From Natrialbaceae archaeon B1-Br10_E2g2 (GTDB taxonomy: Archaea; Halobacteriota; Halobacteria; Halobacteriales; Natrialbaceae), in assembly GCA_001563805.1 (NCBI GenBank), contig LKMK01000004.1, forward strand, positions 1 to 36,026: a stretch of DNA of 36,026 bases. The letters are read 5' to 3'. The notes beneath the pieces were generated by a model. That model was not told the DNA's origin and ran no database searches. It worked only from the letters and a program-made list of their open reading frames with translations. Below, in pieces: positions 534-34,654 of this stretch. How positions within the stretch are numbered: the first letter of the stretch is position 1; each line of letters opens with the position of its first letter. The position numbers were made by a program, and so were the translations under genes.

Positions 534-2087
534 ATGTCGAGCGACCATCCCCACGTCAGTACGACCGAATCCGCGTTCGTAGCGACCGCCACAGACGCCC
601 CACCGGACGCACGCGTTCCGATCGAGGTTCGAGTGCCCGTCGACGATCCGTATCACGCGTACCGTCGCGCCCGGGCCGACCCCACGGCCCACCGCGACGC
701 CGGTGGCGACCCCGACAGCACGGGGCCGACCGGCGTCTACCTCGAGACCACGGGCGGCCAGTCCGGCTGGGGCTACTTCGCCGTCGATCCGTTCACGCGG
801 GTGCAGGTGGGCTCGACGCTCGAGCCAGTCGACGACGTCGACCCCGCGCCGTCGCTCGCGGAACTGGGTGGGCTGCTCGACCGCGAGACGCTCGTCCGCG
901 GCGACTGTGACGTGCCCTACCCCTGCGGGGCGTTCGGCTGGCTCTCCTACGACGTCGTCCGCGAACTCGAGACCCTGCCAGACACCACCGTCGACGAGCG
1001 AGGGGTGCCCCGCCTGCAGGTCGCCGCGTTCGACCGCGTCGCCGCCTGGGAGGAACCACGGGACGGCGAGACGGCACTGCGGATCACGGCCTGTCCCCGC
1101 GTCGGCGACGACCTCCACGCGGCGTACGAACGGGGTCGCGAGCGCGCCCTCGAGCTGGCCCGTGCAGCGACGACGGGTGAGCCCGCCACGCTAGCGCCGG
1201 CGGTGCAGGCGACCGACGCCACCTTCGAGAGCGACTGCTCGACGGCCGAGTTCGCCGACCGCGTCCGCCGCGTCAAAGCGTACGTCCGCGACGGCGACAC
1301 TTTCCAGGCGAACGTCTCCCAGCGACTCACCGCGCCCGCGGCGGTCCATCCCGTCGCGGCCTTCGACGCGCTCCGCGAGGTGAATCCGGCGCCGTACTCG
1401 GCGTTGCTCGAGTTCCCGGGCATCGACCTCGTGAGCGCCTCGCCGGAACTGTTGCTCGACGTCGAGGGCGACCGCCTGCTGACCGAACCGATCGCCGGCA
1501 CCCGACCGCGGGGCGAGACGCCCGCCGAAGACGACGCGCTCGAGGCGGATCTGCTCGACGACGGGAAAGAACGGGCCGAACACGCGATGCTGGTCGACCT
1601 GGAGCGAAACGACCTCGGGAAGGTCAGCGAGTACGGCAGCGTCGAGGTGACCGAGTACCGCCGCGTCGACCGCTACTCGGAGGTCATGCACCTCGTCTCA
1701 CTCGTCGAGGGGCGATTGCGTGCGGGTGCGGACCTGATGGACGCGATCGCCGCCGTGTTCCCCGGCGGGACGATCACCGGCGCCCCCAAACCCCGAACGA
1801 TGGAGATCATCGACGAGGTCGAACGGACGCGCCGTGGTCCCTACACGGGCTCCATCGGCGCATTCGGCTTCGACGGGCGGGCGACGCTCAACATCGTCAT
1901 CCGGACGCTCGTCAGGCGAGGGGACCGGTACTCGCTGCGGGTCGGTGCCGGAATCGTCCACGACTCGGTGCCCGAACGCGAGTACGACGAAACCCTCGAC
2001 AAGGGCCGTGCGCTGGTTCGGGCGCTCGATGCCGCTCTCGGCGAACGCGCGGAACTCGCCGTCGCGGACGGCGGGGTGATCGACTGA
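534..2087 (+). CDS. pabB: Aminodeoxychorismate/anthranilate synthase component I (chorismate-binding family)
   Basis: 517-aa ORF with chorismate-binding motifs ([65 protein letters not shown]); followed by glutamine amidotransferase subunit. PabB versus TrpE not certain. Confidence 0.85.
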
Positions 2088-2163: not shown

Positions 2164-2829
2164 ATGACGCAGATTCTGATCGTCGACAACTACGACTCCT
2201 TCGCGTACAACCTCGTCCAGTACGTCGGCGCCGCGATCGACGCGCCCGAGGCCGGCGAGGTGATCGTCCGGCGAAACGACGCCATCGACGTAGCCGGCGT
2301 CCGACGGCTCGATCCGGACGGGATCGTCGTCTCGCCCGGGCCAGGGACGCCCGCCGAGGCCGGCGTCTCGATCCCGATCTTTCGCGACCTCGAGTACCCG
2401 ACCCTCGGCGTCTGCCTGGGTCACCAGGCGCTCTGTGCGGCGGCCGGCGCGCCCGTCGGTCACGCGCCGCGAGTCGTCCACGGGAAGCCCTCGACGGTCA
2501 CCCACGACGGAACCGGCGTCTTCGAGGGGCTCTCGGACCCATTCGATGCCGGCCGCTACCACTCGCTGGCGGTCGACCGGGCGGACCTGCCGGCCGAACT
2601 GCTCGAGACGGCGAGCACCGTCCTCGTGGACGGCGATCGAGCGGCCGACGCGAGCGAACCCGGTCCCACCGACGCGGCGGGTCGCGAGATCGTGATGGCC
2701 GTCCGCCACCGCGACCGGCCCCACGTCGGCGTCCAGTTTCACCCCGAGAGCATCCTCACCGGCGCGGGGATGACACTGATCGAGAACTTCGTCGATGCTG
2801 CCGCGAACGCGTCCGTGGTTCGTTCCTGA
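2164..2829 (+). CDS. pabA: Aminodeoxychorismate/anthranilate synthase component II (class I glutamine amidotransferase)
   Basis: 221 aa; ILIVDNYDSFAYNLVQY, SPGPGTPAEAG, GVCLGHQAL (nucleophile Cys), GVQFHPESILT. Confidence 0.88.
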   Translation: MTQILIVDNYDSFAYNLVQYVGAAIDAPEAGEVIVRRNDAIDVAGVRRLDPDGIVVSPGPGTPAEAGVSIPIFRDLEYPTLGVCLGHQALCAAAGAPVGHAPRVVHGKPSTVTHDGTGVFEGLSDPFDAGRYHSLAVDRADLPAELLETASTVLVDGDRAADASEPGPTDAAGREIVMAVRHRDRPHVGVQFHPESILTGAGMTLIENFVDAAANASVVRS

Positions 2830-4247: not shown

Positions 4248-5114
4248 TCACCGGTACTGCTCGAGGGTCTTCGCCCGCCAGGACTCGAGGTCGGGCACCT
4301 GGTTGAACGCGTAGACGTGGACGCCACGGAGGTCGTAGTGGGGGTCGGCGGCGTACGGTGCGAGTCCCTCGATCAACGGTTCGGGGACGTACGTCCCGCG
4401 GGAGCCGACGAGTTCGCGGACGAAGCCGAGGATGCCGCTGGTCTTCTGGAGGAAGCGAACCGAATCGCCGACGCCGACCTTTTTCGAGATGCTCAACAGC
4501 CGCTGGTACTTCATGACGCCGGGGATGCCGACTTCGACCGGCAGCTCGACCCCACGGCCGCGAATCTCGTCGATCCACGTGACGATGGCGTCGGGATCGT
4601 AACACAGCTGCGTGACGATGTAGGTCGCGTAGGGCGCTTTGTTCGCCATCGACTCGGCGAGTGTCTCGTCGTCGAGGAAGGCGTGGCCCTCCGGGTAGCC
4701 GGTGATCCCGACGTCGTCGAACTCGTACTCGAGGCCCTCGAGCGCCGACAGCAGCTCGTACGCCGAGGTGAACTCGCCGGCGGGCTCCTCGCGGTCGCCG
4801 CCGGGGACGAAGATGTCGGTGACGCCGGCGTCGGTGAGCCGTTGTGCGACTTCTTCGAGGTGCTCTTCGTCACGGACGTAGCGGGCCGCGATGTGGGGGA
4901 CAACCTCGAAGCCGCGGTCGCTCGCCCGCTCGGTCCAGTCGATCGTCGCCTCGAGGCCCAGCGTCGGCGAGGTAGTGATCGCGACCTCCGCACCCTCGGG
5001 GAGGTGGTCCAGTTGCTCGTCCATGCTCTCGAACGGCATCAGCTCGAAGCGTGGCTCCTCGAGCAACGTAACGACGCCCGCTGCGGTCGTGGTCGGCTGT
5101 ATTTCGGATGACAT
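4248..5114 (-). CDS. metF: Methylenetetrahydrofolate reductase family protein
   Basis: 288 aa; MTHFR TIM-barrel features (EVAITTSPTLGLEATIDWTERASDRGFEVVPHIAAR, FVPGGDREEPAGEFTSAYELL, VTQLCYDPDAI, VEVGIPGVMKYQRLLSISKKVGVGDSVRFL). Confidence 0.88.
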   Translation of the reverse strand: MSSEIQPTTTAAGVVTLLEEPRFELMPFESMDEQLDHLPEGAEVAITTSPTLGLEATIDWTERASDRGFEVVPHIAARYVRDEEHLEEVAQRLTDAGVTDIFVPGGDREEPAGEFTSAYELLSALEGLEYEFDDVGITGYPEGHAFLDDETLAESMANKAPYATYIVTQLCYDPDAIVTWIDEIRGRGVELPVEVGIPGVMKYQRLLSISKKVGVGDSVRFLQKTSGILGFVRELVGSRGTYVPEPLIEGLAPYAADPHYDLRGVHVYAFNQVPDLESWRAKTLEQYR

Positions 5115-5310
5115 GATGTCTGGCTGTGAGGCCTCGGGACGCGTCGCCGCGCGCTGTGTTCACATACGGACTCGAGCCCCTCGTAGGTATCGATTCCGAG
5201 GCGTGTGGACCGTGGCGTGGTCGGTTCGGGCCGACACGGCGGTCTGTCGGTTTCGGCTCACCGAAGCCGACGGCGTCGCTCTCGAGGCCCCGACGCGGTC
5301 CCCTCGCGGT

Positions 5311-6699
5311 TCAGTCCGAGACCTCTTTTCCGGCGTTGAGCTTGGCTTGCTCGCGGGCGCTCGGGTTGACCGACGGCTTGAACGGCACCTCGGAGACCTT
5401 GGCGTACACCGGCTCGCCCGGCTCTTCTGCGTACTCGTCGGGCAGGTGGACCTGGAACTCCGTCTCGATGTCGCCGTCGTAGACGTCCATCGGGTCGCCG
5501 TCGAGTTTCTCGGCCGGCACGAATCCGAGCGCGAGGTTCGTCTCGAGTTCGGGGTTGTGCCACGGCGAGGTGACGTAGCCACACTTCTCGCCGGTGTCGG
5601 GGTCGGAGATGAGCCAGAAGTCCGGCGCGTAGTCGCGAACCGGCTCGCCGGCCATCTTGAGCCCGACCATCTTGTGGACGAACGGGTACTCGCCATCGTC
5701 GATCTGGGCTTTCTGGCGCTCGAGTTCCTCTTTCCCGATGTAGTCTGCGTCTTTGTCGTCGGGCACCTGGTAGGCGAGGTTGACCTGGAACGGCGAGGTC
5801 TCGTGGTCCATGTCCTGGCCCCACGAGAGGATGCCGGCGGCGATACGCCGGTGGTGGGCCGGGGCGACCTGCATGCCGCCGTGGGCGCGGACGGACTCGA
5901 TGGCGGGGTCCCAGACGCGTTCGGCGTTCTTCGAGGCCTCCTTGACGTAGATCTCGAAGCCTTTCTCCCCGGAGAAGCCGGTCTGGCTGATGAGGACGGG
6001 AACGCCGTTGAGCTCGGCCTCCATCAGGCCGTAGTAGGGAATGTCCTCGACCTCCTCGCCGACGAGGTCGACCATCACGTCGACGGATTTGGGGCCCTGG
6101 ATCTGGACCGGCGCGACGTCGATCTCGTCGATCTCGACGTCGAAGTCCATCCCGACGTTGACGCCCTGGAGCCACTGCATCAGTGTCGAGTCCGAGATCG
6201 AGAACCAGAACTCGTCCTCGCCCGGCCGAAGGAGGACGGGGTCGTTGAGGATGCCGCCGTCCTCGTTACAGAGGATGACGTACTTGCCGCGCATCGGTTC
6301 GATCTCGGTCGCGTCGCGGGTGATGACGTAGTTCGTCAGTGCTTCGGCGTCGGGGCCTTTCACGCGGATCTGTCGCTCGACGGCGACGTCCCACAGCGTG
6401 ACGTGGTTGACGAGCGCCTCGTACTCCTCCATCATCCCGCCCTCCTCGGGCTCTAACATCCCGCGTGGGTGGTAGAGCCGGTTGTACACCGTCGCTCGCC
6501 AGGCGCCGTTCTCGACGAACGACTTGTGGAAAAACGGTGACTTGCGTACCCGCGTCGAGACGAGCATTTCGATCCCGGGATCGCCGGACTGTCGCAGGTT
6601 TCGCGGCAGTACCCGGTCGGACTGGTCGACGTTCGGATAGTTCGGGTGGTCCTGACTCTCCGTCTGTGGCGGTTCGTTGCCAGACATTGACATCACCAT
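5311..6699 (-). CDS. GcvT-family aminomethyltransferase, DmdA (DMSP demethylase)-like
   Basis: About 460 aa; ATG choices at 6699, 6693 and 6687. Motifs recalled from DmdA/GcvT alignments: SPFFHKSFVENGAWRATVYNRLYHPRGM, VTLWDVAVERQIRVKGPDAEALTNYVITRD, GGILNDPVLLR, VQGPKSVDVM, SQTGFSGEKGFEIYV. Upstream of and same strand as metF. TATA-like tttta(t) at about 6714-6719 (minus). Confidence 0.8.
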   Translation of the reverse strand: MVMSMSGNEPPQTESQDHPNYPNVDQSDRVLPRNLRQSGDPGIEMLVSTRVRKSPFFHKSFVENGAWRATVYNRLYHPRGMLEPEEGGMMEEYEALVNHVTLWDVAVERQIRVKGPDAEALTNYVITRDATEIEPMRGKYVILCNEDGGILNDPVLLRPGEDEFWFSISDSTLMQWLQGVNVGMDFDVEIDEIDVAPVQIQGPKSVDVMVDLVGEEVEDIPYYGLMEAELNGVPVLISQTGFSGEKGFEIYVKEASKNAERVWDPAIESVRAHGGMQVAPAHHRRIAAGILSWGQDMDHETSPFQVNLAYQVPDDKDADYIGKEELERQKAQIDDGEYPFVHKMVGLKMAGEPVRDYAPDFWLISDPDTGEKCGYVTSPWHNPELETNLALGFVPAEKLDGDPMDVYDGDIETEFQVHLPDEYAEEPGEPVYAKVSEVPFKPSVNPSAREQAKLNAGKEVSD

Positions 6700-6707
6700 G
6701 TCTCGCA

Positions 6708-6759
6708 GGGCACATAAAAGTGGGAGTCGATACCGGTTAACACAGTTCCGTATGTGCCC
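6708..6759. promoter_or_regulatory. Candidate operator: 9-bp inverted repeat gggcacata / tatgtgccc flanking the dmdA-like promoter
   Basis: gggcacata at 6708-6716 and its exact reverse complement tatgtgccc at 6751-6759, 43 bp apart; the proximal half overlaps the minus-strand TATA-like sequence. Confidence 0.45.
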
Positions 6760-6958
6760 CTATGTACCGTGTAGAGGGTCTGAGTCGCCCGAAATACGAT
6801 TCTCGCTTCCGATGGGGGTTTGACCGACTCGAACGACCTACAACTGATAGAACGGTTATGTGTTGTGGAATCCGTGCCGACCGCAGTCGGAATCGGTCGA
6901 CTCGACCCCGGAGGCAGAGCTTTGATACCTCACCACACAGTTAGCTCCACGGTAGCGT

Positions 6959-6989
6959 CCGGGACGAGGCGAACGCGACGCCGTCCCGG
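6959..6989. promoter_or_regulatory. Hairpin in the folD 5' region
   Basis: ccgggacg (6959-6966) / cgtcccgg (6982-6989) exact 8-bp arms, with an inner GGCG/CGCC alternative; about 70 nt upstream of the folD GTG. Confidence 0.4.
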
Positions 6990-7057
6990 CTGACAGAGCT
7001 GATCCACATGAGATCCGAGTTACGTACCAGCCAGACTCCGACAGGCGGTGAGACGTC

Positions 7058-7951
7058 GTGACCCACGTCATCGACGGGAACGCGGTGGCAGACCGGATTA
7101 CCGACGGGCTCGCAGACTGCGTCGAGACACTCGAGGCGGCGCAGGTGACGCCGGGACTCGCCACGGTACTGATGAGCGACGACCCCGCGAGCGAGACGTA
7201 CATTTCGATGAAACAGCAGGCGTGTGCGGACCTCGGTATCGAGAGCATCCACCACGACCTGGAGCCGTCCGCGTCCGCCGACGAACTGTTCGAGACCGTC
7301 GCGGGGCTGAACGAGGACTCCGACGTTCACGGGATTCTCGTCCAGATGCCCGTCCCCGACCACGTCGACGGCTCGAGCGTCCTCCGCAGCATCGACCCGC
7401 TGAAGGACGTCGACGGCTTCCACCCCGAGAACGTCGGCCGACTCGTCGCGGGCGACCCGCGATACAAACCGTGTACGCCCCACGGCATCCAGAAACTGCT
7501 CGAGGCGGCGGACGTCGATACCGAGGGTGCGGACGCGGTGATCGTCGGCCGATCCGACATCGTCGGCAAGCCGATGGCGAACCTGCTGATCCAGAAGGCT
7601 CCCGGCGGCAACGCGACGGTGACGGTCTGTCACTCCCGCACCGAGGACCTCGCCGCGAAGACCCGCGAGGCGGACATCGTGATCGCCGCGGCCGGGGTCG
7701 CCGAACTCGTCGACGGTTCGATGATCCGGGAGGGGGCGACGGTGATCGACGTCGGCGTCAACCGTGTCGAGGCCGACACGGAGAAGGGCTACGAACTCGT
7801 CGGCGACGTCGAATTCGAGAGTGCGAAAGAGAGCGCACGCACAATCACGCCCGTCCCTGGTGGCGTCGGCCCGATGACGATCGCGATGTTGCTGTACAAC
7901 ACGGTCAAAGCCACAGCTATTCAGGAGGACGTCACGATTACGCTCCCGTGA
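7058..7951 (+). CDS. folD: Bifunctional methylenetetrahydrofolate dehydrogenase/methenyltetrahydrofolate cyclohydrolase
   Basis: 297 aa, GTG start; VHGILVQMPVPDHV, DPLKDVDGFHPENVGRL, PCTPHGIQKLL, VIVGRSDIVGKPMANLL, TPVPGGVGPMTIAMLL. Confidence 0.96.
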   Translation: MTHVIDGNAVADRITDGLADCVETLEAAQVTPGLATVLMSDDPASETYISMKQQACADLGIESIHHDLEPSASADELFETVAGLNEDSDVHGILVQMPVPDHVDGSSVLRSIDPLKDVDGFHPENVGRLVAGDPRYKPCTPHGIQKLLEAADVDTEGADAVIVGRSDIVGKPMANLLIQKAPGGNATVTVCHSRTEDLAAKTREADIVIAAAGVAELVDGSMIREGATVIDVGVNRVEADTEKGYELVGDVEFESAKESARTITPVPGGVGPMTIAMLLYNTVKATAIQEDVTITLP

Positions 7952-8066: not shown

Positions 8067-9302
8067 GTGAGCAGCGACGCGCTCCCCGTCACGTTCGAGG
8101 ACGTCGAAGCGGCCCGTCGCCGACTCGACGATCCCACCGTCGTCAAACGGACGCCGGTCGAACGGAGCACGTCGCTCGAGGCGATGACCGGCGCCGACGA
8201 GGTCGTCCTCAAACTCGAGCACCTCCAGTGGACGGGCTCCTTCAAGACCCGCGGCGCGTACAACAAGATACAGCGGTGTCTCGCCGAGGGAGACCTCGAG
8301 CAGGTCGTCGCGGCCAGTGCGGGTAATCACGCCCAGGGCGTCGCCCTCGCTGCGACGACGCTCGGGGTGGAGTCGACCATCGTCATGCCGAGGACGGCCC
8401 CACAGACGAAGATCGACGCCACGCGTGGCTACGGCGCGACGGTCGAACTCGTCGGCCAGGACTTCCAGGCGGCCACCGAGTACGCCCGCGACCTCGCGGG
8501 CGACTCGAGCGCCGAGTTCGTCCACGCGTTCGACGATCCGGCGATCGTCGCCGGCCAGGGGACACTCGGCCTCGAGATGTACGAGCAGTATCCGGACGCC
8601 GACACCGTCGTCGTCCCGATCGGCGGCGGCGGCCTGATCGGCGGCATCGCGACCGCGTTCGCGGACCGAAACCCCGAGACGCGAATCGTCGGCGTCCAGG
8701 CCACCGGCGCGGCGACCGTCCACGACAGCCTCGACAAAGGCGTCCCCCAGACGCTCGAGTCGGTCGACACCATCGCAGACGGCATCGCGACCGGCGGCAT
8801 TTCGGAGCTAACGATGTCGATGATCGACCACCACGTCGACGACGTGGTGACCGTGACGGACGCCGAAATCGCCGACGCGATCCTCCTGTTGATGGAGCGG
8901 GCAAAGCAGGTCGTCGAGGGTGCCGGTGCAGCGTCCGTCGCGGCGCTGTTGAGCGACGACCTCGACGTCACCGACGAGTCGGTCGTGGCGCTGTTGTGTG
9001 GGGGCAACCTCGATATGACAATGCTCATGGAGGTCGTGATTCACGCACTGACCAGGCGCAAACAACTGCTCAAGTTGCGCGTCCACATCGACGACCAGCC
9101 GGGCAAGATGGCCCACATCTCCGGACTCATCGCCGACTGCGGGGCCAACATCCAGACCGTCCGTCACGACCGCGCACTCGAGGAGTTAGACGTCGGCGAG
9201 GCGTATCTGATCTTCCAGGTCGAGACGAGCGGTGCGGATCACGCGGCGGAGATCCTCGATTCGATCACCGCCGGCGGATACGAGGTCGAACTCGTGAGCT
9301 GA
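8067..9302 (+). CDS. ilvA: Threonine (serine) ammonia-lyase with C-terminal ACT domain
   Basis: 411 aa, GTG start; PLP motif WTGSFKTRGAYNKI, SAGNHAQGVA, PIGGGGLIGGIA, ACT-like C-terminus LRVHIDDQPGKMAHISGLIADCGANIQTVRHDRA. Confidence 0.93.
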   Translation: MSSDALPVTFEDVEAARRRLDDPTVVKRTPVERSTSLEAMTGADEVVLKLEHLQWTGSFKTRGAYNKIQRCLAEGDLEQVVAASAGNHAQGVALAATTLGVESTIVMPRTAPQTKIDATRGYGATVELVGQDFQAATEYARDLAGDSSAEFVHAFDDPAIVAGQGTLGLEMYEQYPDADTVVVPIGGGGLIGGIATAFADRNPETRIVGVQATGAATVHDSLDKGVPQTLESVDTIADGIATGGISELTMSMIDHHVDDVVTVTDAEIADAILLLMERAKQVVEGAGAASVAALLSDDLDVTDESVVALLCGGNLDMTMLMEVVIHALTRRKQLLKLRVHIDDQPGKMAHISGLIADCGANIQTVRHDRALEELDVGEAYLIFQVETSGADHAAEILDSITAGGYEVELVS

Positions 9303-10292: not shown

Positions 10293-12089
10293 ATGACAGA
10301 CGAAGGCAAGCGCGGAATACAAGGCGAACTGTTCCACGCGGAGACGGATCGAGAACCGGGAGACAACAACTGGCAAGGATATGGATTCGACATCAATCCA
10401 CCCGTATTTCTCATCGCAGGTGGGCTGATCGTCCTGTTTATCCTCCTCTCGCTTGCGTTTCCGGACCAGGCGGGAGCGATCTACCAGGATACGCGGATCG
10501 CGATATCCGACTACTTCGACTGGCTGTTCATCCTGGCAGCGAACATCTTCATCATCTTCATGGTTTATCTCGCCATCAGCAAGTACGGCGCGATCCGGCT
10601 CGGCGGCGTCGACGGCGAGAAGGAGTTCAGCGACATCTCCTGGATCGCGATGCTGTTCAGCGCGGGGATGGGGATCGGCCTGATGTTCTTCGGCGTCGCC
10701 GAGCCGGTCTACCACCTCTTCGACCCGCACCTGGGCGCCGAAGCGGGCACTGACGCTGCAGCGGAGGTTGGCATGGCGGTGTCGCTGTTCCACTGGGGCT
10801 TCCATCCGTGGGCGATTTACGCGCTGGTGGCGCTCGGGCTCGCGTTTTTCTCGTACAACCGAGGGCTCCCGCTCACGTTCCGGTCGGTCTTCTACCCGGT
10901 ACTGGGCGAACGGATCTACGGCTGGCCAGGACACGTCATCGACATCTTCACCGTGTTCGCGACGCTGTTCGGCCTCGTGACCTCGCTCGGCCTCGGCGCG
11001 TTACAGATCAACGCCGGGTTGACGTTCGTGGGTGACGAAGTGGGCGCGTTCCCCGCCGTGCCCGACTCGGTCTGGGTGGCCGTCGGGATCATCGCGGTCG
11101 TCACGGGCCTGGCGATCATCTCGGTGTACCTCGGCCTCGACAAGGGGATCCGGCGTCTCAGCAACCTGAACCTGACGCTGATGCTCGTACTTCTGGCGTC
11201 GGTGTTCCTCCTCGGGCCGACGCTGTTCATCCTCGGTGCGCTCCCACAGGGGATCGGCGCGTACATCGGGAACTTCTTCGAACTGTCGTTCTTCGGTAAC
11301 TCCTTCGACAGTCACTACTTCGAGGGGTCGGAGTTCTACGGTCCGGGTGGCGAAGGTGAAGGCGGGTTCCTCGTCGACTGGACGGTGTTCTACTGGGCCT
11401 GGTGGATCTCCTGGTCACCGTTCGTCGGCATGTTCATCGCACGCATCTCGAAGGGGCGTACCATCCGCGAGTTCGTCGGCGGCGTCCTGATGATCCCCGT
11501 CGTCTTCTCGTTCGCCTGGTTCGCGGCGATGGGCGGGACCGCGCTCAACTTCGAAATGGAAGAGGCGACCGCCGGTGCGATCAGCGGTCCGATGTTCGAG
11601 ACCGGCGAGGAACTCGCGATGTTCGCGATGTTCGATCTGATGCCCGGCACCGTGGTCCTGTCAGTGCTGGCGATCATCCTCGTTACGACGTTCTTCGTGA
11701 CGTCTTCGGACTCGGGCTCGCTCGTCCTCGAGCACCTGAGCACCGGCGGAAAACACGAAACCCCGGCGACCGGTCGGGTCTTCTGGGCCGCCTCCGAAGG
11801 GGTCGTCGCGGCCACGCTGTTGATCGCCGGCGGTGACGCGGCAGTCGACGCACTCCAGGCGGCCGCCATCGCCAGCGGCCTCCCCTTTGCGGTGATCCTG
11901 CTGTTTATGATCTACGCCGTGATGCAGGGGCTGAAAAAGGAGTACCGGATCCTCCAGTCGGACGACTTCGAGGAACTGATCGACGACCTCGAGGAGCAGG
12001 GTGAGATCGTCGTCACGAGCGAAACCGGCGACCTCGTGACCGAAGTCAGAACCAGAGACGACAGGGTGGTTAACGTCGGGGGCGACTGA
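10293..12089 (+). CDS. BCCT-family transporter (glycine betaine-type)
   Basis: 598 aa, multi-TM; GMGIGLMFFGVAEPVYH and the BetP-like aromatic box WTVFYWAWWISWSPFVGMFIARISKGRTIREF. Confidence 0.95.
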   Translation: MTDEGKRGIQGELFHAETDREPGDNNWQGYGFDINPPVFLIAGGLIVLFILLSLAFPDQAGAIYQDTRIAISDYFDWLFILAANIFIIFMVYLAISKYGAIRLGGVDGEKEFSDISWIAMLFSAGMGIGLMFFGVAEPVYHLFDPHLGAEAGTDAAAEVGMAVSLFHWGFHPWAIYALVALGLAFFSYNRGLPLTFRSVFYPVLGERIYGWPGHVIDIFTVFATLFGLVTSLGLGALQINAGLTFVGDEVGAFPAVPDSVWVAVGIIAVVTGLAIISVYLGLDKGIRRLSNLNLTLMLVLLASVFLLGPTLFILGALPQGIGAYIGNFFELSFFGNSFDSHYFEGSEFYGPGGEGEGGFLVDWTVFYWAWWISWSPFVGMFIARISKGRTIREFVGGVLMIPVVFSFAWFAAMGGTALNFEMEEATAGAISGPMFETGEELAMFAMFDLMPGTVVLSVLAIILVTTFFVTSSDSGSLVLEHLSTGGKHETPATGRVFWAASEGVVAATLLIAGGDAAVDALQAAAIASGLPFAVILLFMIYAVMQGLKKEYRILQSDDFEELIDDLEEQGEIVVTSETGDLVTEVRTRDDRVVNVGGD

Positions 12090-13719: not shown

Positions 13720-14145
13720 TCATTGCTCGATGACGACCGTCGCCGCGTCCTCGGCCATCCGGATGACGTTCGATGCGGTGCTCCCGACGTGTCTGTCGAT
13801 CGCATCGTGGCCCTGTTTGCCCACCAGGATGGCGTCGATGTCGTTGCGTTCGGCGTAGTCGACGATCTCCTCTGCCGGACGACCAGTCCTGAGCGCACCA
13901 GTGGCCTCGAGACCGCGATCCCCCGCCCGTTCGACGATGTCCGTGACGAGCTCTTCGCCGTACTCCCTGTAGGCCTCCAGCTCGTTGTCGGAGAGCCCCA
14001 CGGTCAAAATGTAGGTTGCCTTCGTTTCGACTACGTACAGTGCGTGCACCGTTGCATCCATCTCTTCGGCGATGTCGAGACCGTACTCGACGCATGGTTC
14101 AGCCTCGTCACTCCCGTCGGTCGCGATCAAAACGTTATCGTACAT
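13720..14145 (-). CDS. Universal stress protein (UspA family), paralog of 12576-13001
   Basis: 141 aa; NVLIATDGSDEAEPCVEYGLDIAEEMDATVHALYVVETKATYILTVGLS, VGKQGHDAIDRHVGSTASNVIRM. Confidence 0.93.
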   Translation of the reverse strand: MYDNVLIATDGSDEAEPCVEYGLDIAEEMDATVHALYVVETKATYILTVGLSDNELEAYREYGEELVTDIVERAGDRGLEATGALRTGRPAEEIVDYAERNDIDAILVGKQGHDAIDRHVGSTASNVIRMAEDAATVVIEQ

Positions 14146-14302
14146 CTGTTTTCGTCCTCGTCTTCGCCGTAGTATCGACGTGATAGCATATAGTCCTTGC
14201 TTCTGTTACCATATCGCATGGTCTCCCGGCGACGTTCGCCGATCAGGGCGGGAGGGCCCGTTTGCCGGTACTACTTTGCCGTCTCGGCCCGTCCGTTCAC
14301 GC

Positions 14303-15529
14303 GTGGCGACGGATCACTCAGACTCCTCGGAGTCTGCGCTCGAGCGGTTGTTCTCCCACGGCGAGACGGTTCGTCTCGTCAACTGGCGAGCGCTTTCCGG
14401 GGCGAAGTCGGCGGTCATCCTGTGTGGGTTCGTCGCCGTGCTCTCGTTCGTCACCGGCCTATCGAATCTCGCCCAGCCGACGGTCGCCGACGACGGTCCC
14501 CTCGCGACGGTTCTCCCCGGCGGACCGAGCGTCGTTCCGTTTACCGGCGTCCTGCTGGCGTTCGTCCTCGGGGCACTCGTGTTCGGACTCGGGCGCCGGA
14601 AGCGCCTCGCCTGGTATCTCACGGTACTCACGCTCCCACTCACCTCGCTGTTACCCCTGACGGCGTTCCAGACGACGGACGTTCCGCTCTTGCTCTCGGT
14701 TCTCCTCGCCCTCCCGCTGTTGCTCGTCAACCGGGACGCGTTCGATCGGCGCCTCGAGCTCTCCTCGCTCCAGATCGCCTCGCTGTCCTCGATCGTGGGT
14801 GTCGTGTTGTACGGCACGATCGGCACCTACGCGATTCGCGATCAATTCACCGGTATCGACACCTGGGGCGATTCGGTCTACTACGTCGTCGTGACCATCG
14901 CGACGGTCGGATACGGGGACATCACGCCGCTGACAACCGGGGCGAAGTGGTTCTCGCTGTCGATCATCCTCTTCGGAACCGGCGCGTTCACGGTCGCTAT
15001 CGGGGCCTTGATCGTGCCGGCGATCGAGAAACGAATGGCCACCGTATTCGGAAACATGACACCATCAGAACTCACGTTACTCGAGGACCACGTGCTAGTG
15101 CTCGGGCACAGCGACATGACGGACTCCCTGCTCGAGGAACTCGACGACGAGGTCGACGTCGTGGTCGTTACGCCCGACGCGGACGCAGCAGCCACGCTAA
15201 CCGACCGGGCGGTCAACGTCCTCACCGACGATCCGACGCACGAGGCGACGCTTCGCGACGCCAAGATCGGCGACGCTGCGGGCGTGATCGTCGCGACACA
15301 CGACGACGCCAACGACGTCCTCGCCGCCCTCGCGGCCCGGAAGGTGAACCCCGACGTCCGCATCGTCGCCGCAGCGACCGACGGACAGCACGTCGACAAA
15401 CTCGAGGCGGTCGGCGCGGACGAGGTCATCAGCCCCGTCGAGATGGCCGGCCGGCTCCTCGGCCGGTCGATCCTCGAGAAGCCGTCGGCCGAGTCGCTGC
15501 TCGAACCGACCGACGACGACGCGTCGTGA
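14303..15529 (+). CDS. Potassium channel protein with RCK/TrkA-N-like domain
   Basis: Pore-loop signature VYYVVVTIATVGYGDITPLTTGAKWF, several N-terminal TM segments, C-terminal TrkA-N-like region (DHVLVLGHSDMTDSLLEEL...). GTG at 14303 preferred to the track start at 14072, which overlaps the antisense usp gene. Confidence 0.88.
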   Translation: MATDHSDSSESALERLFSHGETVRLVNWRALSGAKSAVILCGFVAVLSFVTGLSNLAQPTVADDGPLATVLPGGPSVVPFTGVLLAFVLGALVFGLGRRKRLAWYLTVLTLPLTSLLPLTAFQTTDVPLLLSVLLALPLLLVNRDAFDRRLELSSLQIASLSSIVGVVLYGTIGTYAIRDQFTGIDTWGDSVYYVVVTIATVGYGDITPLTTGAKWFSLSIILFGTGAFTVAIGALIVPAIEKRMATVFGNMTPSELTLLEDHVLVLGHSDMTDSLLEELDDEVDVVVVTPDADAAATLTDRAVNVLTDDPTHEATLRDAKIGDAAGVIVATHDDANDVLAALAARKVNPDVRIVAAATDGQHVDKLEAVGADEVISPVEMAGRLLGRSILEKPSAESLLEPTDDDAS

Positions 15530-15773: not shown

Positions 15774-17624
15774 ATGGGCATTCAGGGAGTCAGCGCCGGT
15801 GAACGCGCCCTCCGAAAGCTCGTGGTTCCGCTCTGTCTCCTGTCGGGGATCGTCGTCGTCTCGGGCTTTTTCTTCCCGGAACTCGTCGGCGAAACCATCC
15901 CTGGCCGGGCCTGGCTCGCCACGTCTCTCGTCTTCTTCGCCTCCGGGCTGAGCTACCTGGCGGTGTTACCAACCGACGTCGACGAGACGACGGACGGCTT
16001 CGATCCGGAGGATCTACTGCGTGTCCGCCGGCTCGAGCTGGCGGACACCGCGAAGGGATTTTGGGCCCGTCAGGATCCGATCACCTTCGGCGTCCCGGTC
16101 GTCGTGTTCGCGCTCTTTTTCGTCGGGCAGCTGGTGATTCCATCGGAGACGATCGCTACCGTCGATGCCGCACAGGCCGCAGTGACCACGTACGGTGGGT
16201 CGGTGTTTTCCGCCGTCGTGCTGCTCGCCGTCCTGTTCTGTCTGTTCTTGCTGGCTGGGCCGTGGGGGTCGGTGAAACTCGGTGGTCCGGATGCCGAACC
16301 GTCGTACACGTACCCCGTCTACTTCACAATGTTCTTTACAGCCGGCATCGCCGCCGGCATCGTCTTCTGGGGGCCGGCGGAGGCGCTGTTTCACTACGAG
16401 ACGCCGCCGGCGTACTTCGACGTCGATCCGGGGTCGGAGGGCGCTGCCGAGGCGGCGCTCACCTACGCTCTGTTCCACTGGGGATTTTCCGCCTGGAGCG
16501 CCTACATCGCGCTCGGCGTTCCGATCGCATACTACGTCTACGAGCGCGGTGCGCCGTTGCGGGTTTCGGCGATCCTGACCCCGTTTCTGGGCACCGAGAA
16601 CCTCGACTCGGCGTGGTGTCGGCTCGTCGACCTCCTCGCCGTCTTCGCGACGATCGGCGGGATCGCCACCTCCATCGCACTCGTCGGCGAACAGTTCCTC
16701 GTCGGGGTCGACTTCCAGTGGGACATGACCTTCGATACGCTCGGTTCGGTCCTGTTCGTCGGCGGCCTGACGTTCATCTTCGTCGTCTCGGCCCAGAGCG
16801 GCGTTCACCGTGGGATCAGACGGATCGCGGCCGTCAACGTCGTCCTGTTCGGGCTGTTCGCAGCGCTGTTTCTCGCCGTCGCCCCGCGAACCGTCGTCCT
16901 CGAGAGCAGCTCGAGCGCGCTCGGTAGCTACGGCGCGAACGTCGTTCCGATGAGTCTTCACCTTGGCGACGGGCTGGTCGCCGACGAGTGGGTCGCGGAG
17001 TGGACGATCTGGAACTGGGCGTGGTGGCTCTCGTGGGCGCCGTTCGCCGGCCTCTTTCTGGCTGCGCTCTCCCGCGGTCGGCGAATCAGAACCGTCGTCC
17101 TGACGGGGTTCGTCGCGACGTCGCTGGCGACGATGGTCTGGTTTCTGCTGCTCGGTTCGACTGCCGTTCACCTCCAGCAGACGAGTGCCGTAGACGTGCT
17201 TGCGGCGGTCGAGGCCTACGGCGGTTCCGAGGCCGTCGCCGGCTTCCCGATGTTCGAGATGTTCGCGATCGGCCAGCTGCTCGTCTTCGTCTTCCTGGCG
17301 CTGATCGTCGTCTTCATGACGACCTCCGCCGACACCTCGACGCTCGTCGTGGCGGTGCTGGCGACGAAACGCGACTTCGCCCCGACGACCGGCTCGATCA
17401 TCTTCTGGGGGGGCTTTCAGGGACTCGTCGCCGTCTCCGTGCTCGTCACCGACACCGCGGAAGTCCTGCAGGCGATGGCCGTCTTGACTGGCGGTCCGTT
17501 CGCCCTGCTGGTCTGTCTCGCGCTGGTCGGCCTCGTCGGAACGCTTCTCACACGCGAGGACGATCGCTCCACGTCTATCGACTCCGAGGGGTCGGGAGAA
17601 GACAACGGGAGCACCGACCGGTGA
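15774..17624 (+). CDS. BCCT-family transporter (divergent)
   Basis: 616 aa, multi-TM; YFTMFFTAGIAAGIVFWGPAEALFHYE and WTIWNWAWWLSWAPFAGLFLAALSRGRRIR align with BCCT TM3 and TM8; TATA-like ttgattta 27 nt upstream. Confidence 0.9.
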   Translation: MGIQGVSAGERALRKLVVPLCLLSGIVVVSGFFFPELVGETIPGRAWLATSLVFFASGLSYLAVLPTDVDETTDGFDPEDLLRVRRLELADTAKGFWARQDPITFGVPVVVFALFFVGQLVIPSETIATVDAAQAAVTTYGGSVFSAVVLLAVLFCLFLLAGPWGSVKLGGPDAEPSYTYPVYFTMFFTAGIAAGIVFWGPAEALFHYETPPAYFDVDPGSEGAAEAALTYALFHWGFSAWSAYIALGVPIAYYVYERGAPLRVSAILTPFLGTENLDSAWCRLVDLLAVFATIGGIATSIALVGEQFLVGVDFQWDMTFDTLGSVLFVGGLTFIFVVSAQSGVHRGIRRIAAVNVVLFGLFAALFLAVAPRTVVLESSSSALGSYGANVVPMSLHLGDGLVADEWVAEWTIWNWAWWLSWAPFAGLFLAALSRGRRIRTVVLTGFVATSLATMVWFLLLGSTAVHLQQTSAVDVLAAVEAYGGSEAVAGFPMFEMFAIGQLLVFVFLALIVVFMTTSADTSTLVVAVLATKRDFAPTTGSIIFWGGFQGLVAVSVLVTDTAEVLQAMAVLTGGPFALLVCLALVGLVGTLLTREDDRSTSIDSEGSGEDNGSTDR

Positions 17625-18331: not shown

Positions 18332-20476
18332 TCAGTCGTCGGCCGGGGCGTCGTCCGCCGGTTCGATACCGACCTCGATCTCGGCAGCCGCCGCCTTGTA
18401 CTCGGGGATCTTCGCGCGCTCGTCGAGGACGTCGTTCGTAAGCTTGTTCGCCGAGGCGGCCGCGAAGTGTGGCGTCGTCCACACCGAGCCTTCCTTGATG
18501 TCCTCGGTGACCTGTGCCTCGACGGTGATCTCGCCGCGGCGTGACTTGAGAACGACGTCCTGGCCGTCCTCGATGCCGTAGCGCTCGGCGTCGTTCGGGT
18601 GGACGTCGACGAAGTTCTCCGGCGTCTGGCGGTTCAGCGTCGGCGATCGGCGGCTCATCGTCCCCGTGTTGTAGTGTTCCTCGAGGCGGGCGGTCGTCAG
18701 GATCAGCGGGTACTCGTCGTCGGGCGTCTCCTCGGGTGGTTGGTGGGTGACACCGATGATCCGTCCGAGCCCGTTCTCGGTGTCGAACTCCTCTTCGTAG
18801 AGGAACGGATCGCCCTCGTCGCCGGGCTCGTAGCAGGGCCAGTGGAGCCCTTCCTCGCCGAGTAGCTCGTAGGTCATCCCGTGGTAGATCGGACAGACCT
18901 CCCGGAGCTCTTCGAAGACCTCCTCGGGGCCGTCGAAGTCGAACCCCGAATCGAACAGCCGCGTTCCGATCTCGGTGAGGATCTCGAGGTCGTGTTTCGT
19001 GTTCTCGTGGACCTTCTCGACGCCGCGCATCAGCTGGACGCGTCGGTCGGTGTTCGTGACGGTGCCGCCGCGTTCGGCCCAGGTCGTCGCCGGGAGGATC
19101 ACGTCGGCGTACTGGCTCGTCTCGGTCGGGAAGATGTCCTGGACGACGACGAACTCGAGTTCCTGAATCCGCTCGGCGACGCGGTTCGCGTCTGGTTCGC
19201 TCATCACGGGGTTTTCGCCCATCACGTACAGCCCTTTCACCGAGTCGCCGAACTCGTGGGAGAGTTCGACGTTGGTGAGGCCGGGCTCGTCGGGGACCTC
19301 GAAGCCCCAGACTTCCTCGACGGACTCGCGAGCCTCGTCGTCGTCGACGAGCTGGTAGCCCGGCAGGACGTTCGGCATCGCGCCGACGTCACAGGTGCCC
19401 TGCACGTTGTTCTGGCCGCGCAGCGGGTTGACGCCAGTGCCGGCTCGGCCGACGTTGCCGGTGATCAACGCGAGGTTGATCTCGTTCTGGACGTTGTCGA
19501 CGCCGCAGACGTGCTGGCTCATCCCCATTCCGGTGAAGATGGCCGCGTTGTCCGCCTCGGCGTACTTCTCGGCGGCCAGTTCGATCTCCTCGAGCTCGAG
19601 GCCACACTCCTCGGCTGCGGCTTCCTTGTCGAAGTCCTCGAGCGTCTCTTTCAGGTGTTCGAACCCTTCGGTACGCGCCTCGATGAACTCCTCGTCGATC
19701 CAGCCCGCCTCCGGGTCTTCCTCGTGGTTCTCGAGTATCGTCTTGATGACGACGTTCAGAAGCGGGATGTCGGTCCCCGGCTTCAACTGGAGGTGCTGGT
19801 GGCGGTCGGTGTCGTCGATGCCGAACGAGCGGGTCGTCTTGTTCGCGTGGGGGTCGACCTGGATGACGGTCGCCCCGTCGAGGACGGCCTGGCGGAAGTA
19901 CTGGCTGTTCGCGATCGGGTGTTGCTCGCCCGGGTTGGCCCCCTGGATCCAGAAGAGGTCGGCTTCGTCGCGAAGGTCGGCCATGCTGTTGGTCATCGCG
20001 CCCGCGCCGAGGCTCGTCCGCAGCGCCCAGACGGTCGAGGCGTGACACATCCGCGTGCAGTTGTCGACGTTGTTCGTGCCCAGCCGGCGGGCGAGTTTCT
20101 GGAGGAGGTAGTTCTCCTCGTTCATCGCCTTCGAACAGCCGTAAAAGCCCAGCGCGTCGGCGCCGTACTCGTCACGAATGCGCTCGAGTTCGTCGACGAT
20201 CAGCCCGTAGGCCTCCTCCCAGGAGGCCTCGCGGAACTCCCCGTCCTCTTTGATCAGCGGCTCGGTGAGCCGATCCTCGTGATCGACGACCTCCGTCGCC
20301 GCACCGCCTTTGATGCAGATCCGGCCCTCGTTGACGGGCGCGTCGCCCCACGGCATGAACTGGACGTCCCCCGGCTCGTCGCCCTGTTTGACCTGTATCC
20401 CACAGCCGACACCACAGTACGGGCAGATCGTCTTGACCGGGTCGGACTCGGGTTCATCGGTCGACATCGAGATCAC
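18332..20476 (-). CDS. Formate dehydrogenase catalytic (molybdopterin) subunit
   Basis: About 714 aa (start 20476 or 20467); 4Fe-4S motif CPYCGVGCGIQV...GRICIKGG, NVDNCTRMCHASTVWALRTSLGAGAMTNSMADL, NPLRGQNNVQGTCDVGAMPNVLPGYQ, and the C-terminal MoCo-binding domain. Confidence 0.92.
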   Translation of the reverse strand: MISMSTDEPESDPVKTICPYCGVGCGIQVKQGDEPGDVQFMPWGDAPVNEGRICIKGGAATEVVDHEDRLTEPLIKEDGEFREASWEEAYGLIVDELERIRDEYGADALGFYGCSKAMNEENYLLQKLARRLGTNNVDNCTRMCHASTVWALRTSLGAGAMTNSMADLRDEADLFWIQGANPGEQHPIANSQYFRQAVLDGATVIQVDPHANKTTRSFGIDDTDRHQHLQLKPGTDIPLLNVVIKTILENHEEDPEAGWIDEEFIEARTEGFEHLKETLEDFDKEAAAEECGLELEEIELAAEKYAEADNAAIFTGMGMSQHVCGVDNVQNEINLALITGNVGRAGTGVNPLRGQNNVQGTCDVGAMPNVLPGYQLVDDDEARESVEEVWGFEVPDEPGLTNVELSHEFGDSVKGLYVMGENPVMSEPDANRVAERIQELEFVVVQDIFPTETSQYADVILPATTWAERGGTVTNTDRRVQLMRGVEKVHENTKHDLEILTEIGTRLFDSGFDFDGPEEVFEELREVCPIYHGMTYELLGEEGLHWPCYEPGDEGDPFLYEEEFDTENGLGRIIGVTHQPPEETPDDEYPLILTTARLEEHYNTGTMSRRSPTLNRQTPENFVDVHPNDAERYGIEDGQDVVLKSRRGEITVEAQVTEDIKEGSVWTTPHFAAASANKLTNDVLDERAKIPEYKAAAAEIEVGIEPADDAPADD

Positions 20477-20601
20477 CTGTGTGAGCGAGCGTCATTGTCT
20501 AGTGGAACGTCTCTCTCGACGGGCATCAAAGTTTCTTCGCCCCCTCGCACGACGTCCTCGGAGGAAAACGTTCACACTCCCGGACCCGTAATACGACGGG
20601 T

Positions 20602-21171
20602 ATGGATCTCACCGCGGAGACCGTCGACTCCCTCGCTGCCGAGTACGAGACCACCCACCCGTTCGCGACGGTCGAGGACGAACACTTAGAGATGCTGCCG
20701 CCGACGCTCGCGGCCGGCGACTACGGCTGGCGCGACCTCGAGTGGGTCGTCCAGTGGTACTACCGGCGCACGCTGGGCGCGGTGCCGAACGCCGACCGCC
20801 GCGAGCGCGAGGCGGCGTTCGCCGAGAACGACTACGAGACCGTCCACGCGGCGATCGACGACGCCCTCGCCGCCGACGGGACGACCGCGACACTCGAGTC
20901 CCTGACGGCGCTGTCGGGCGTCGACGTTCCCGTCGCGAGCGCGTTCTTGCAGTTTCTCTCGCCGGACCGCTACCTGGCCGTCGGCGAGCGCGAGTGGCGC
21001 GTGCTGGCCGACCGCGAGGAACTCTCGCGAGCGTACCCGGATGAGCCAGGGGCCGACGACTACGCGGCGTACCTCGAGTGCTGTCGAACCGTTGCCGATC
21101 GGTGTTCCTGTGACCTCCAGACGCTGTACCGTGCGCTCTGGATGCTCGGATGCGACCGGCCGAACGCGTAG
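20602..21171 (+). CDS. Conserved hypothetical protein
   Basis: 189 aa acidic ORF with consistent codon usage between fdh and fhs; LSGVDVPVASAFLQFLSPDRYLAVGEREWRVL vaguely resembles HhH-GPD-like proteins; no confident family. Confidence 0.75.
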   Translation: MDLTAETVDSLAAEYETTHPFATVEDEHLEMLPPTLAAGDYGWRDLEWVVQWYYRRTLGAVPNADRREREAAFAENDYETVHAAIDDALAADGTTATLESLTALSGVDVPVASAFLQFLSPDRYLAVGEREWRVLADREELSRAYPDEPGADDYAAYLECCRTVADRCSCDLQTLYRALWMLGCDRPNA

Positions 21172-21244
21172 TCCTCCTCGCCGGCTGACGGGCTGACTCG
21201 AAGGGACTGCCTGCCGATCGGACGAAACGCGGGCGGTCAGGTGC

Positions 21245-22957: not shown

Positions 22958-23156
22958 ACGGGTACGTTTTCGAGAGGCGCCCATAAGTGTTGACGCTCCT
23001 ATAGCTCACCGGATACGACGAGTTTCCGGACCCCCTCGAGTGGCCGCCTGTCGTCCGAACTGGCTTCGGTCTCGACAGCGTCGCCCGCCCGCAGAACGTG
23101 TCGAGAAACTAGGTAGTTGTGGAACGACGCACTCGACGCGACTTTTATTGATCGGC

Positions 23157-23173
23157 GTGCGATCTGTTCGCAC
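23157..23173. promoter_or_regulatory. Candidate operator abutting the folC-folP start codon
   Basis: GTGCGA-tctgt-TCGCAC, 6-bp perfect arms ending directly before ATG 23174; TATA-like acttttattg at about 23140. Confidence 0.4.
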
Positions 23174-26031: not shown

Positions 26032-26121
26032 ATGACACTATACGGTTACGTGCCGAGACTACAGACCGGTACCGACACTGTGGACGGACAGGAACGCCGC
26101 GTGGCGGGTGAGCGACGATGA
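26032..26121 (+). CDS. Candidate 29-aa leader peptide/uORF coupled to the dehydrogenase
   Basis: MTLYGYVPRLQTGTDTVDGQERRVAGERR*; its TGA overlaps the downstream ATG (ATGA at 26118-26121). Confidence 0.4.
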   Translation: MTLYGYVPRLQTGTDTVDGQERRVAGERR

Positions 26122-28853: not shown

Positions 28854-29627
28854 ATGAACGTACTGGCCTGTGTCAAACGAGTGCCGAACACCGGCGCGAA
28901 AATCGTACTGACCGACGACAACCAGCGCATCGACGCGAGCAACCTGGGGTTCACCATGAGCCCCCACGAGGAGTGTGCCATCGAGGAGGCCATCCAGCAG
29001 GTCGAGGCCCACGGCGGCTCGGCCCACGTCCTCACGCTCGGCCCCGAGGACGCGACCGAACAGCTCCGAACCGGGCTGGCCATGCAGGCCGACGAGGCCA
29101 CCCTGCTCGAGACCGACGGCGCCGAGTGGGGGCCGCGTGCGACCGCCGACGCGATCGCGAACGCAGTCCGCGACCTGGCCGACGACGGCACCGAGTTCGA
29201 CCTGCTGTTGTTCGGCACCGAGTCCGCGGACGCGGCGAACTACCAGGTCGGCGTCCGCGTCGCCCGCAAACTCGGTCGACCCTGCGTGACCGGAATCAAG
29301 TCCCTCGACGTCGAGGACGGCACGGCGATCGCCGGACGCGAGGTCTCCGGCGGCGAGGAGATCTACGAGGTCGACCTCCCCGCCGTCGTTACGGTCAAAG
29401 AGGGGATCAACGAGCCCCGCTACGCCTCGATGCGTGCGAAGATGCAGGCGCGAAAGCAGGAGCTCGACCACCTCGAGCCGGCCGGCGCCGCCGGCGGGGG
29501 CACGTTCGAGAAGGTCCGTCTCGAGGCGCCCGAGACGGACGACTCGGCCGCCGAGGTGCTCGGTGACGGTCCCGATGCTGTCCCCGAAATCGTCGAGGTC
29601 CTCGAGTCGGAGGTGGAGGTGCTATGA
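28854..29627 (+). CDS. etfB: Electron transfer flavoprotein beta subunit
   Basis: 257 aa; MNVLACVKRVPNTGAKI, MSPHEECAIEEAIQ, DLLLFGTESADAANYQVGVRVARKLGRPCVTGI, VDLPAVVTVKEGINEPRYASM. Confidence 0.94.
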   Translation: MNVLACVKRVPNTGAKIVLTDDNQRIDASNLGFTMSPHEECAIEEAIQQVEAHGGSAHVLTLGPEDATEQLRTGLAMQADEATLLETDGAEWGPRATADAIANAVRDLADDGTEFDLLLFGTESADAANYQVGVRVARKLGRPCVTGIKSLDVEDGTAIAGREVSGGEEIYEVDLPAVVTVKEGINEPRYASMRAKMQARKQELDHLEPAGAAGGGTFEKVRLEAPETDDSAAEVLGDGPDAVPEIVEVLESEVEVL

Positions 29628-33818: not shown

Positions 33819-33919
33819 CACCGAGTAGGCGAACGTTTCAATCGGTCGTTACGTCCCGGTTGATCACCGACGCTTATGATGCTGGAGTGTGTTACCTTAC
33901 CAAGACGTTTCCACCCCAG

Positions 33920-34654
33920 ATGTCGCTCATCACCGAGGTCCGATTCGCTCACGAACACGGCGCGCTCGTCGACACGCTAACAGCGCTGCCAGACCTCTCG
34001 GTCGACATCGTCCGCGAAGCGAGCACGGCTCCGAACCGGGGTGGCTACTTCTTCCGGTTCGACCACGCCCGTCCCGAGGAGGTCCGGCCCCTCCTCGAGT
34101 CTGACCACACGGTCAGTGCGGCCGAGCGGGTGTCGGCGGTCGACGACGAGCACCTCTGGAAGATCGCTTTCACGTCCGAGACGACGCTCCTCGCGCCGGC
34201 CGTCACGGAACGGGGCGGCGTCGTCCTCGACGCTCGAAGCGCACCGGCAACCACCGAGCCACGCGGCTGGCGCGAACGCTGGTTCTTCCCGGACGAGGAG
34301 GGCATCCAGGGCATCTGGCACCACGCTCGAGCGGCGGACTTCGAGTTCGACGTGCTCGACCTCTCCCGACAGCTCCAGCCCGACGTCCCGCACGTCGAGA
34401 TGAACCCGGTCACCGACGAACAGCGCCGGGCCCTGTTGACGGCGTACGAACTGGGCTACTTCGAGGAGCCACGCGAGACCTCACTCGAGGAGCTCGCGGC
34501 AGCCCTCGAGCTGTCGCCCTCTGCGGTCAACGGCCGGCTCAGACGCGGCCTGAAGTCGCTGATCGGCACGGCGTTGACCGTCGACGTCGAGGCCGCTCCG
34601 GAGCGGCCGGACGGGAAGTCACGGACGGAACCCGAGTCGTACCAGTACCGATGA
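33920..34654 (+). CDS. Bat-like HTH_10 (bacterio-opsin activator-type) regulator
   Basis: Start MSLITEVRF at 33920; C-terminus TDEQRRALLTAYELGYFEEPRETSLEELAAALELSPSAVNGRLRRGLKSLIGTAL is typical HTH_10. Confidence 0.88.
   Translation: MSLITEVRFAHEHGALVDTLTALPDLSVDIVREASTAPNRGGYFFRFDHARPEEVRPLLESDHTVSAAERVSAVDDEHLWKIAFTSETTLLAPAVTERGGVVLDARSAPATTEPRGWRERWFFPDEEGIQGIWHHARAADFEFDVLDLSRQLQPDVPHVEMNPVTDEQRRALLTAYELGYFEEPRETSLEELAAALELSPSAVNGRLRRGLKSLIGTALTVDVEAAPERPDGKSRTEPESYQYR

Follow-up and report, generated by a model that had tools for sequence, protein, structure and literature searches.

The window analysed here is a stretch of 36,026 nucleotides from Natrialbaceae archaeon B1-Br10_E2g2, and corresponds to contig C94 in a haloarchaeal draft assembly of 251 contigs (2.87 Mb, 77.8% complete). 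It carries a gene for a GcvT-fold protein of 462 amino acids (aa) together with metF. The 462-aa protein is probably a cobalamin- and oxygen-independent glycine betaine:tetrahydrofolate (THF) methyltransferase; the paired MetF would oxidise the resulting 5-methyl-THF, and the two would feed betaine catabolism.

The gene pair and its products

The two genes of the pair are as follows:

5311–6699, minus strand: proposed glycine betaine:THF methyltransferase of the DmdA superfamily, 462 aa, ATG start (assigned by profile scores, tree, residues and structure model)
4248–5114, minus strand: MetF, proposed 5-methyl-THF oxidase of the MTHFR family, 288 aa, ATG start

The GcvT-fold gene lies upstream of metF on the same strand with a gap of 196 bp, as was described in the earlier note on this DNA (a DmdA-like gene before metF on the minus strand, about 200 bp apart). 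Pfam assigns the 462-aa protein to GCV_T (E 8.6e-42) and the 288-aa protein to MTHFR (E 3.4e-12). The stretches WDVAVERQI and GGILNDPV, to which the earlier note drew attention, are both found in the 462-aa protein and are conserved across its relatives. The note was also right that the protein is longer than DmdA: the Pelagibacter enzyme has 369 aa. The extra length is mainly accounted for by a conserved N-terminal extension with invariant Gln26, Asp28, Arg29, Asn34, Arg36 and Gln37, by a short insertion near residue 82 and by a longer C-terminus. In public records the Haloarcula orthologs are labelled "glycine cleavage system protein T" or "aminomethyltransferase". No paper assigning a function to this family was found among open-licence PMC papers.

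Relation to DmdA and other GcvT-fold proteins

In a maximum-likelihood tree (51 sequences, 409 columns; supports are taken from the unrooted tree) the family of the 462-aa protein forms a clade of its own with support of 100/100. Together with DmdA from Pelagibacter and Roseovarius and a DmdA-like group from Gemmatimonadota it makes up a joint clade (95.1/97), within which DmdA and the DmdA-like group unite at 94.3/96 to the exclusion of the 462-aa family. The family is thus a sister of the DmdA clade and lies outside it. GcvT (97.3/100), the dimethylglycine oxidase/dehydrogenase family (DMGO; 100/100) and the trimethylamine N-oxide (TMAO) demethylase Tdm all fall outside the joint clade, so that the choice between canonical GcvT and DmdA, raised in the earlier note, is settled by the tree on the side of DmdA.

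The profile scores agree with this placement. Among NCBIfam models DmdA (NF009133) scores highest with 235.5 bits, below its cut-off of 410; by this score and by its position outside the DmdA clade the protein is not a DmdA. The two GcvT models give 157 bits (cut-off 300) and 137 bits (cut-off 236), and these scores, along with the position outside the GcvT clade, rule out a canonical GcvT. A separate canonical GcvT, 31% identical to the 462-aa protein, is encoded on contig C54 of the same genome. Tdm was rejected as well (148 bits at a cut-off of 1100), as the 462-aa protein consists of GCV_T domains only and has no extra N-terminal domain.

Among solved structures, DmdA 3tfh matches the sequence best (E 2.5e-43). 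An AlphaFold model was built from 66 sequences (pLDDT 79.9, pTM 0.80) and was preferred to that from 15 close relatives (pLDDT 52.8). In the comparison with Pelagibacter DmdA that the earlier note had suggested, it superposes at 1.9 Å on 3tfh, against 3.2 Å on T-protein 1wos. Foldseek E-values are nearly equal for the two (7.7e-32 for 1wos, which comes first, and 3.0e-31 for 3tfh), and only the root mean square deviation separates GcvT from DmdA.

Seventeen invariant positions are common to the family, DmdA and the DmdA-like group but not to GcvT (Arg50, Arg52, Tyr72, Asn73, Leu96, Trp103, Arg109, Gln110, Arg128, Asn152, Trp165, Asp170, Ser171, Gly179, Glu192, Gly214 and Ser243), whereas only three are common to the family and GcvT but not to DmdA. 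The conserved aspartate (Asp153), Glu249 and Tyr251 are retained. Judged by the common clade and the DmdA-type residues, the 462-aa protein is a member of the DmdA superfamily, and its chemistry is very likely folate-dependent. It shares with DmdA the fold and the THF-site residues; it differs in sequence (32% identity to Roseovarius DmdA), in its separate sister clade, in the N-terminal extension and in its genomic context of dimethylglycine oxidation. With GcvT it has in common the fold and the conserved aspartate. At the position of Trp197 in Pelagibacter DmdA (Trp171 in the numbering of PMC7487153, where it is a residue specific for dimethylsulfoniopropionate, DMSP) the family has invariant Phe242. 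This argument against DMSP had to be downgraded, since a Roseovarius protein scoring above the DmdA cut-off, a true DmdA, carries tyrosine there.

The window protein is 62–65% identical to family members from Gemmatimonadota, Vicinamibacteria, Gammaproteobacteria and Roseovarius. Such identity across these groups points to strong constraint on the family, which has probably been transferred between domains. One Roseovarius genome (G061) has a true DmdA (679.7 bits) and a family member (247 bits) as separate genes. Five Gemmatimonadota proteins (L098–L102) represent a third group between the family and DmdA, being 38–39% identical to the window protein and scoring 382–407 bits with the DmdA model (cut-off 410). 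Divergent second copies of the family gene, 66–70% identical to the window protein, also exist (L065 11684–13189, plus strand; genomes G180, G160 and G143, the last with a broken frame); they perhaps serve a second substrate.

Co-occurrence with MetF and DMGO and apparent exchange with Rieske oxygenases

The distribution of the relevant genes was examined in 146 genomes of the same order by Fisher tests, whose p-values treat related panel genomes as if they were independent. The family gene is present in 35 genomes. MetF is present in 37, including all 35 with the family gene (1e-31), and a generic MTHFR model adds no further genome, so that among haloarchaea MetF hardly occurs without the family gene. 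DMGO was counted with a DMGO query, as the methyltransferase used as query misses DMGO of the window type; it is found in 49 genomes, namely in 35 of 35 with the family gene and in 14 of the 111 others (1e-22). BCCT transporters occur in 97 genomes, again including all 35 (6e-8). Betaine–homocysteine methyltransferase (BHMT, PF02574) was found in none of the 146, in line with the earlier note, which saw no BHMT in the window.

Each of the two MetF genomes without the family gene has its own context. In G144 MetF stands beside folate genes. In G152 (L134) a DesA/LigM-like protein (4800–6152, minus strand) is encoded divergently from MetF (6710–7558, plus strand); it scores 481 bits with the DesA model, under the cut-off, and is possibly an archaeal aryl O-demethylase or another THF-dependent demethylase. 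Hence 35 of the 37 MetF genomes have the family gene, and the 36th has a DesA/LigM-like neighbour of MetF.

The same association is seen in gene order. Within 10 kb of the family gene at 67 haloarchaeal loci, the genes most often found are those of MetF (50 loci, median gap 740 bp), Bat regulators (35), DMGO (32), IlvA-type dehydratase (31), BCCT (29) and FolD (28), followed by formate-THF ligase (19), serine hydroxymethyltransferase (SHMT, 11), PabB (10) and FolP-FolC (8). The pairing with MetF noticed at the window locus is therefore not a chance one. On Haloarcula hispanica pHH400 the order is dihydrofolate reductase, the family gene, MetF, a hypothetical protein, an aspartoacylase-like protein, two FAD oxidoreductases (DMGO), IlvA, Usp and BCCT; the family gene there is HAH_RS18290 and metF is HAH_RS18285. 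Two further products recur next to MetF in these clusters, a conserved protein (about 390 aa) that matches no Pfam or NCBIfam model and an AstE/AspA-like hydrolase (L033 13949–15118 and L081 16413–17411, both minus strand). In bacteria, a DMGO homolog adjoins the family gene at 7 of 13 loci; at a Roseovarius locus (L085 11384–12439, minus strand) an apparent proline racemase-family gene stands beside the family member, which hints that proline betaine may be another substrate in this case.

The window MetF matches the solved MTHFR structures 7xg9/7xlf with 113 bits, compared with 31 bits for Thermus MTHFR. The structure match does not name the organism of 7xg9, which we take to be the MTHFR of Sphingobium SYK-6. 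In SYK-6 an MTHFR type running in the oxidative direction is coupled to the THF-dependent demethylase LigM (PMC13001107, PMC12585457).

Fourteen genomes have DMGO but not the family gene. In 13 of these 14 a Rieske oxygenase is encoded about 2–5 kb from DMGO, and MetF is found in none of the 14. Four Rieske proteins were compared with NCBIfam models (three from genomes without the family gene and one from G118, which has both genes), and the best model was GbcA for all four (E 2e-39 to 2e-42). Downstream genes are shared with the Rieske-type loci: IlvA and BCCT stand beside DMGO in L127–L129, and FolD in L128. Two genera (g42 and g53) contain both types, and within each of them MetF tracks the family gene. 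In DMGO clusters the family gene thus appears to be replaced by a GbcA-like Rieske oxygenase. The lack of MetF in the Rieske-type genomes fits this replacement, because the GbcA reaction yields formaldehyde and not 5-methyl-THF. The single exception (G077, L132 7760–10204) has neither the family gene nor a Rieske oxygenase, and its DMGO relative is divergent (34% identity to the window copy). The Haloarcula marismortui plasmid pNG700 (L144) carries the family gene and MetF as well as a ring-hydroxylating oxygenase (20061–21200, plus strand) between two FAD oxidoreductase genes, so that a single cluster would hold both of the proposed routes. The fold, the placement as sister of DmdA, the gene order, the co-occurrence and the apparent Rieske replacement are all read from sequence.

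Proposed pathway and alternative explanations

From these data we infer the reaction, betaine as its substrate, the direction of MetF and all fluxes. The other genes of the window from which the pathway is composed are listed below:

534–2087, plus strand: PabB-type aminodeoxychorismate synthase component I, folate precursor synthesis (TIGR01824 427 bits, above cut-off)
2164–2829, plus strand: PabA-type glutamine amidotransferase (PF00117)
7058–7951, plus strand: FolD, methylene-THF dehydrogenase/cyclohydrolase (551 bits, above cut-off 477)
8067–9302, plus strand: IlvA-type threonine/serine dehydratase, proposed to convert serine to pyruvate (TIGR01127 448 bits, above cut-off)
10293–12089, plus strand: BCCT transporter of betaine type (PF02028 E 2.7e-179; NF047988 499 bits, below cut-off 650; TIGR00842 above cut-off)
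15774–17624, plus strand: second BCCT-family transporter (NF047988 346 and TIGR00842 320 bits, both below cut-off; PF02028 above cut-off)
18332–20476, minus strand: formate dehydrogenase alpha, proposed end of one-carbon (C1) oxidation (TIGR01591 743 bits, above cut-off 666)
23117–25741, plus strand: Mur-ligase and pterin-binding fusion of FolC-FolP type, folate synthesis
26118–28652, plus strand: DMGO-family FAD and GcvT protein, proposed to demethylate dimethylglycine (1pj5 E 1.1e-143; Pfam DAO, FAO_M, GCV_T)
28854–29627, plus strand: electron transfer flavoprotein (ETF) beta, proposed electron acceptor (PF01012)
29624–30598, plus strand: ETF alpha (PF00766, PF01012)
33860–34654, plus strand: Bat/HTH_10 regulator, of the kind counted above near the family gene

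The betaine-type BCCT mentioned in the earlier note is therefore accompanied by a second one. Between the two BCCT genes lies a TrkA_N/Ion_trans_2 potassium channel (14072–15529, plus strand), and similar channels occupy the same place in Natronococcus loci.

In the proposed pathway betaine would be imported by the BCCT carriers. THF would be bound by the 462-aa protein as in DmdA, and a methyl group would pass, without change of redox state, from the quaternary nitrogen to N5 of THF, with dimethylglycine leaving and 5-methyl-THF being formed. The adjacent MetF, working oxidatively, would convert 5-methyl-THF to 5,10-methylene-THF, from which FolD (in many loci along with formate-THF ligase) would take the C1 unit to formate, a possible substrate of formate dehydrogenase. 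Dimethylglycine would be converted via sarcosine to glycine by one or more DMGO-family flavoenzymes with ETF; glycine and methylene-THF would then give serine (SHMT) and finally pyruvate (IlvA-type dehydratase). For the C1 unit, glycine and serine, the subsequent steps follow textbook biochemistry. They mirror the response of Ruegeria, which on betaine makes more of the THF-linked C1 oxidation enzymes, serine-ammonia lyase and a BCCT transporter (PMC12478193).

The co-occurrence with MetF and DMGO and the apparent Rieske replacement support glycine betaine, which is the likely substrate. Where the earlier note left the choice between a quaternary amine and DMSP, the former has gained from these observations and DMSP is disfavoured: the tree places the protein outside the DmdA clade, its score stays under the DmdA cut-off, and the genes linked to it make up a path from dimethylglycine to glycine, serine and pyruvate. 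Several observations weigh against betaine or against the proposed route. DMGO proves neither betaine nor dimethylglycine, and other N-methyl amino acids are possible. The Rieske enzymes score only 135–145 bits with the GbcA model (cut-off 670), carnitine monooxygenase is the solved structure nearest to them, and three genomes with the family gene (G095, G118 and G185) also carry a DMGO-linked Rieske enzyme. In bacteria the window MetF is matched at E 1e-5 in 3 of 12 genomes, and the strict link to MetF does not extend to them. The MTTB family (MtgB-type corrinoid methyltransferases), a possible rival betaine demethylase, is present in 8 of the 146 genomes (G047, G079, G112, G167, G173, G178, G180 and G185). 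All eight have the family gene, in six of them within about 30 kb of it, and hence a corrinoid route may coexist there. PF06253 has no match in the window's own genome, where absences mean little because the genome is incomplete. Finally, PMC3102087 cites a finding that betaine did not boost growth in Haloquadratum walsbyi; the family gene is found in two draft genomes of this species (L057 and L070).

The most serious alternative, though an unlikely one, is the same chemistry with another methyl donor (proline betaine, carnitine, choline, DMSP or TMAO), the DMGO-like flavoenzymes acting on its product or on unrelated compounds. The substrate is not readable from sequence, the Rieske partners resemble not only carnitine monooxygenase but also 3vca (presumably stachydrine demethylase), and the proline racemase-family neighbour in Roseovarius and the divergent second copies point the same way. 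On the other hand, a route with glycine as its end product agrees with the two tandem DMGO genes, SHMT and the serine-type dehydratase, and the window DMGO aligns end to end with dimethylglycine oxidase and dehydrogenase; DMSP in particular is disfavoured by the placement described above. Far less probable is the biosynthetic direction, in which MetF would make 5-methyl-THF and the protein would methylate dimethylglycine to the osmolyte betaine. Methyl transfer could be reversible, and BCCT and betaine are osmolyte-linked, but DMGO, present in every genome with the family gene, would destroy the precursor, MetF resembles 7xg9 and not canonical MetF, and a catabolic role is indicated by the Rieske oxygenase that apparently takes the place of the family gene next to the same DMGO, IlvA and BCCT genes.

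A GcvT-like aminomethyltransferase serving the glycine cleavage system or DMGO by trapping C1 units in the form of methylene-THF would agree with the shared fold, the first rank of 1wos in Foldseek and the T-protein label in public records. It is nevertheless slightly less probable still: the genome has its separate canonical GcvT, DMGO has a GcvT domain of its own, the tree and the residues side with DmdA, and the strict need for MetF would be unexplained if the product were methylene-THF. Hardly credible is a LigM/DesA-like aryl O-demethylase coupled to MetF, an idea that came from the similar length and from the MetF pairing. Its logic, a GcvT-fold THF-dependent demethylase with an oxidative MetF, is that of LigM and S6MTHFR in SYK-6. 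The similarity is marginal, with 33 bits for LigM (cut-off 580) and 42 bits for DesA (cut-off 800), whereas a true DesA/LigM-like haloarchaeal protein scores 420–481; the clade and the substrate class are different, aromatic genes were not found in the clusters, and this identity was rejected.

The proposed glycine betaine:THF methyltransferase differs from each of the known systems for the first betaine methyl. Its net reaction (betaine + THF to dimethylglycine + 5-methyl-THF) would be that of MtgB/MtgC/MtgA and MtgBCD, but these are cobalamin-dependent multi-protein systems of the PF06253 family, and here a single protein would suffice. The Rieske monooxygenase GbcAB would hold the same position before dimethylglycine oxidation, but it uses O2 and its fold is unrelated; BHMT also removes the first methyl, with homocysteine as acceptor. 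Aerobic betaine routes were given in 2025 as GbcAB, BHMT and the cobalamin-dependent MtgBCD, with mention of neither GcvT nor DmdA (PMC12478193). DMGO genes near BCCT genes in haloarchaea were noted before and the use of betaine, dimethylglycine or sarcosine was raised, though no betaine demethylase was named (PMC3102087). "Non-DmdA" homologs without an assigned substrate were described with a Halobacteriales calibration (PMC7487153), and the haloarchaeal entries among them may belong to the 462-aa family or to DMGO.

Glycine betaine is a major osmolyte of salty habitats and a source of carbon and nitrogen. If the proposed function is true, the missing first step of betaine consumption would be supplied in many salt-loving archaea. 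Beside GbcAB, BHMT and MtgBCD this would probably be a fourth aerobic route for the first methyl group: single-protein, cobalamin-free and oxygen-free, of DmdA-superfamily origin, interchangeable with the Rieske monooxygenase, and widespread in haloarchaea with occurrences also in Gemmatimonadota and Roseobacters. Haloarchaeal MetF would gain a role, and the DmdA fold would have been recruited for nitrogen osmolytes in addition to DMSP. Some betaine demethylases in saline metagenomes may then be hidden among genes counted as DmdA homologs or annotated as glycine cleavage T-protein or as aminomethyltransferase.

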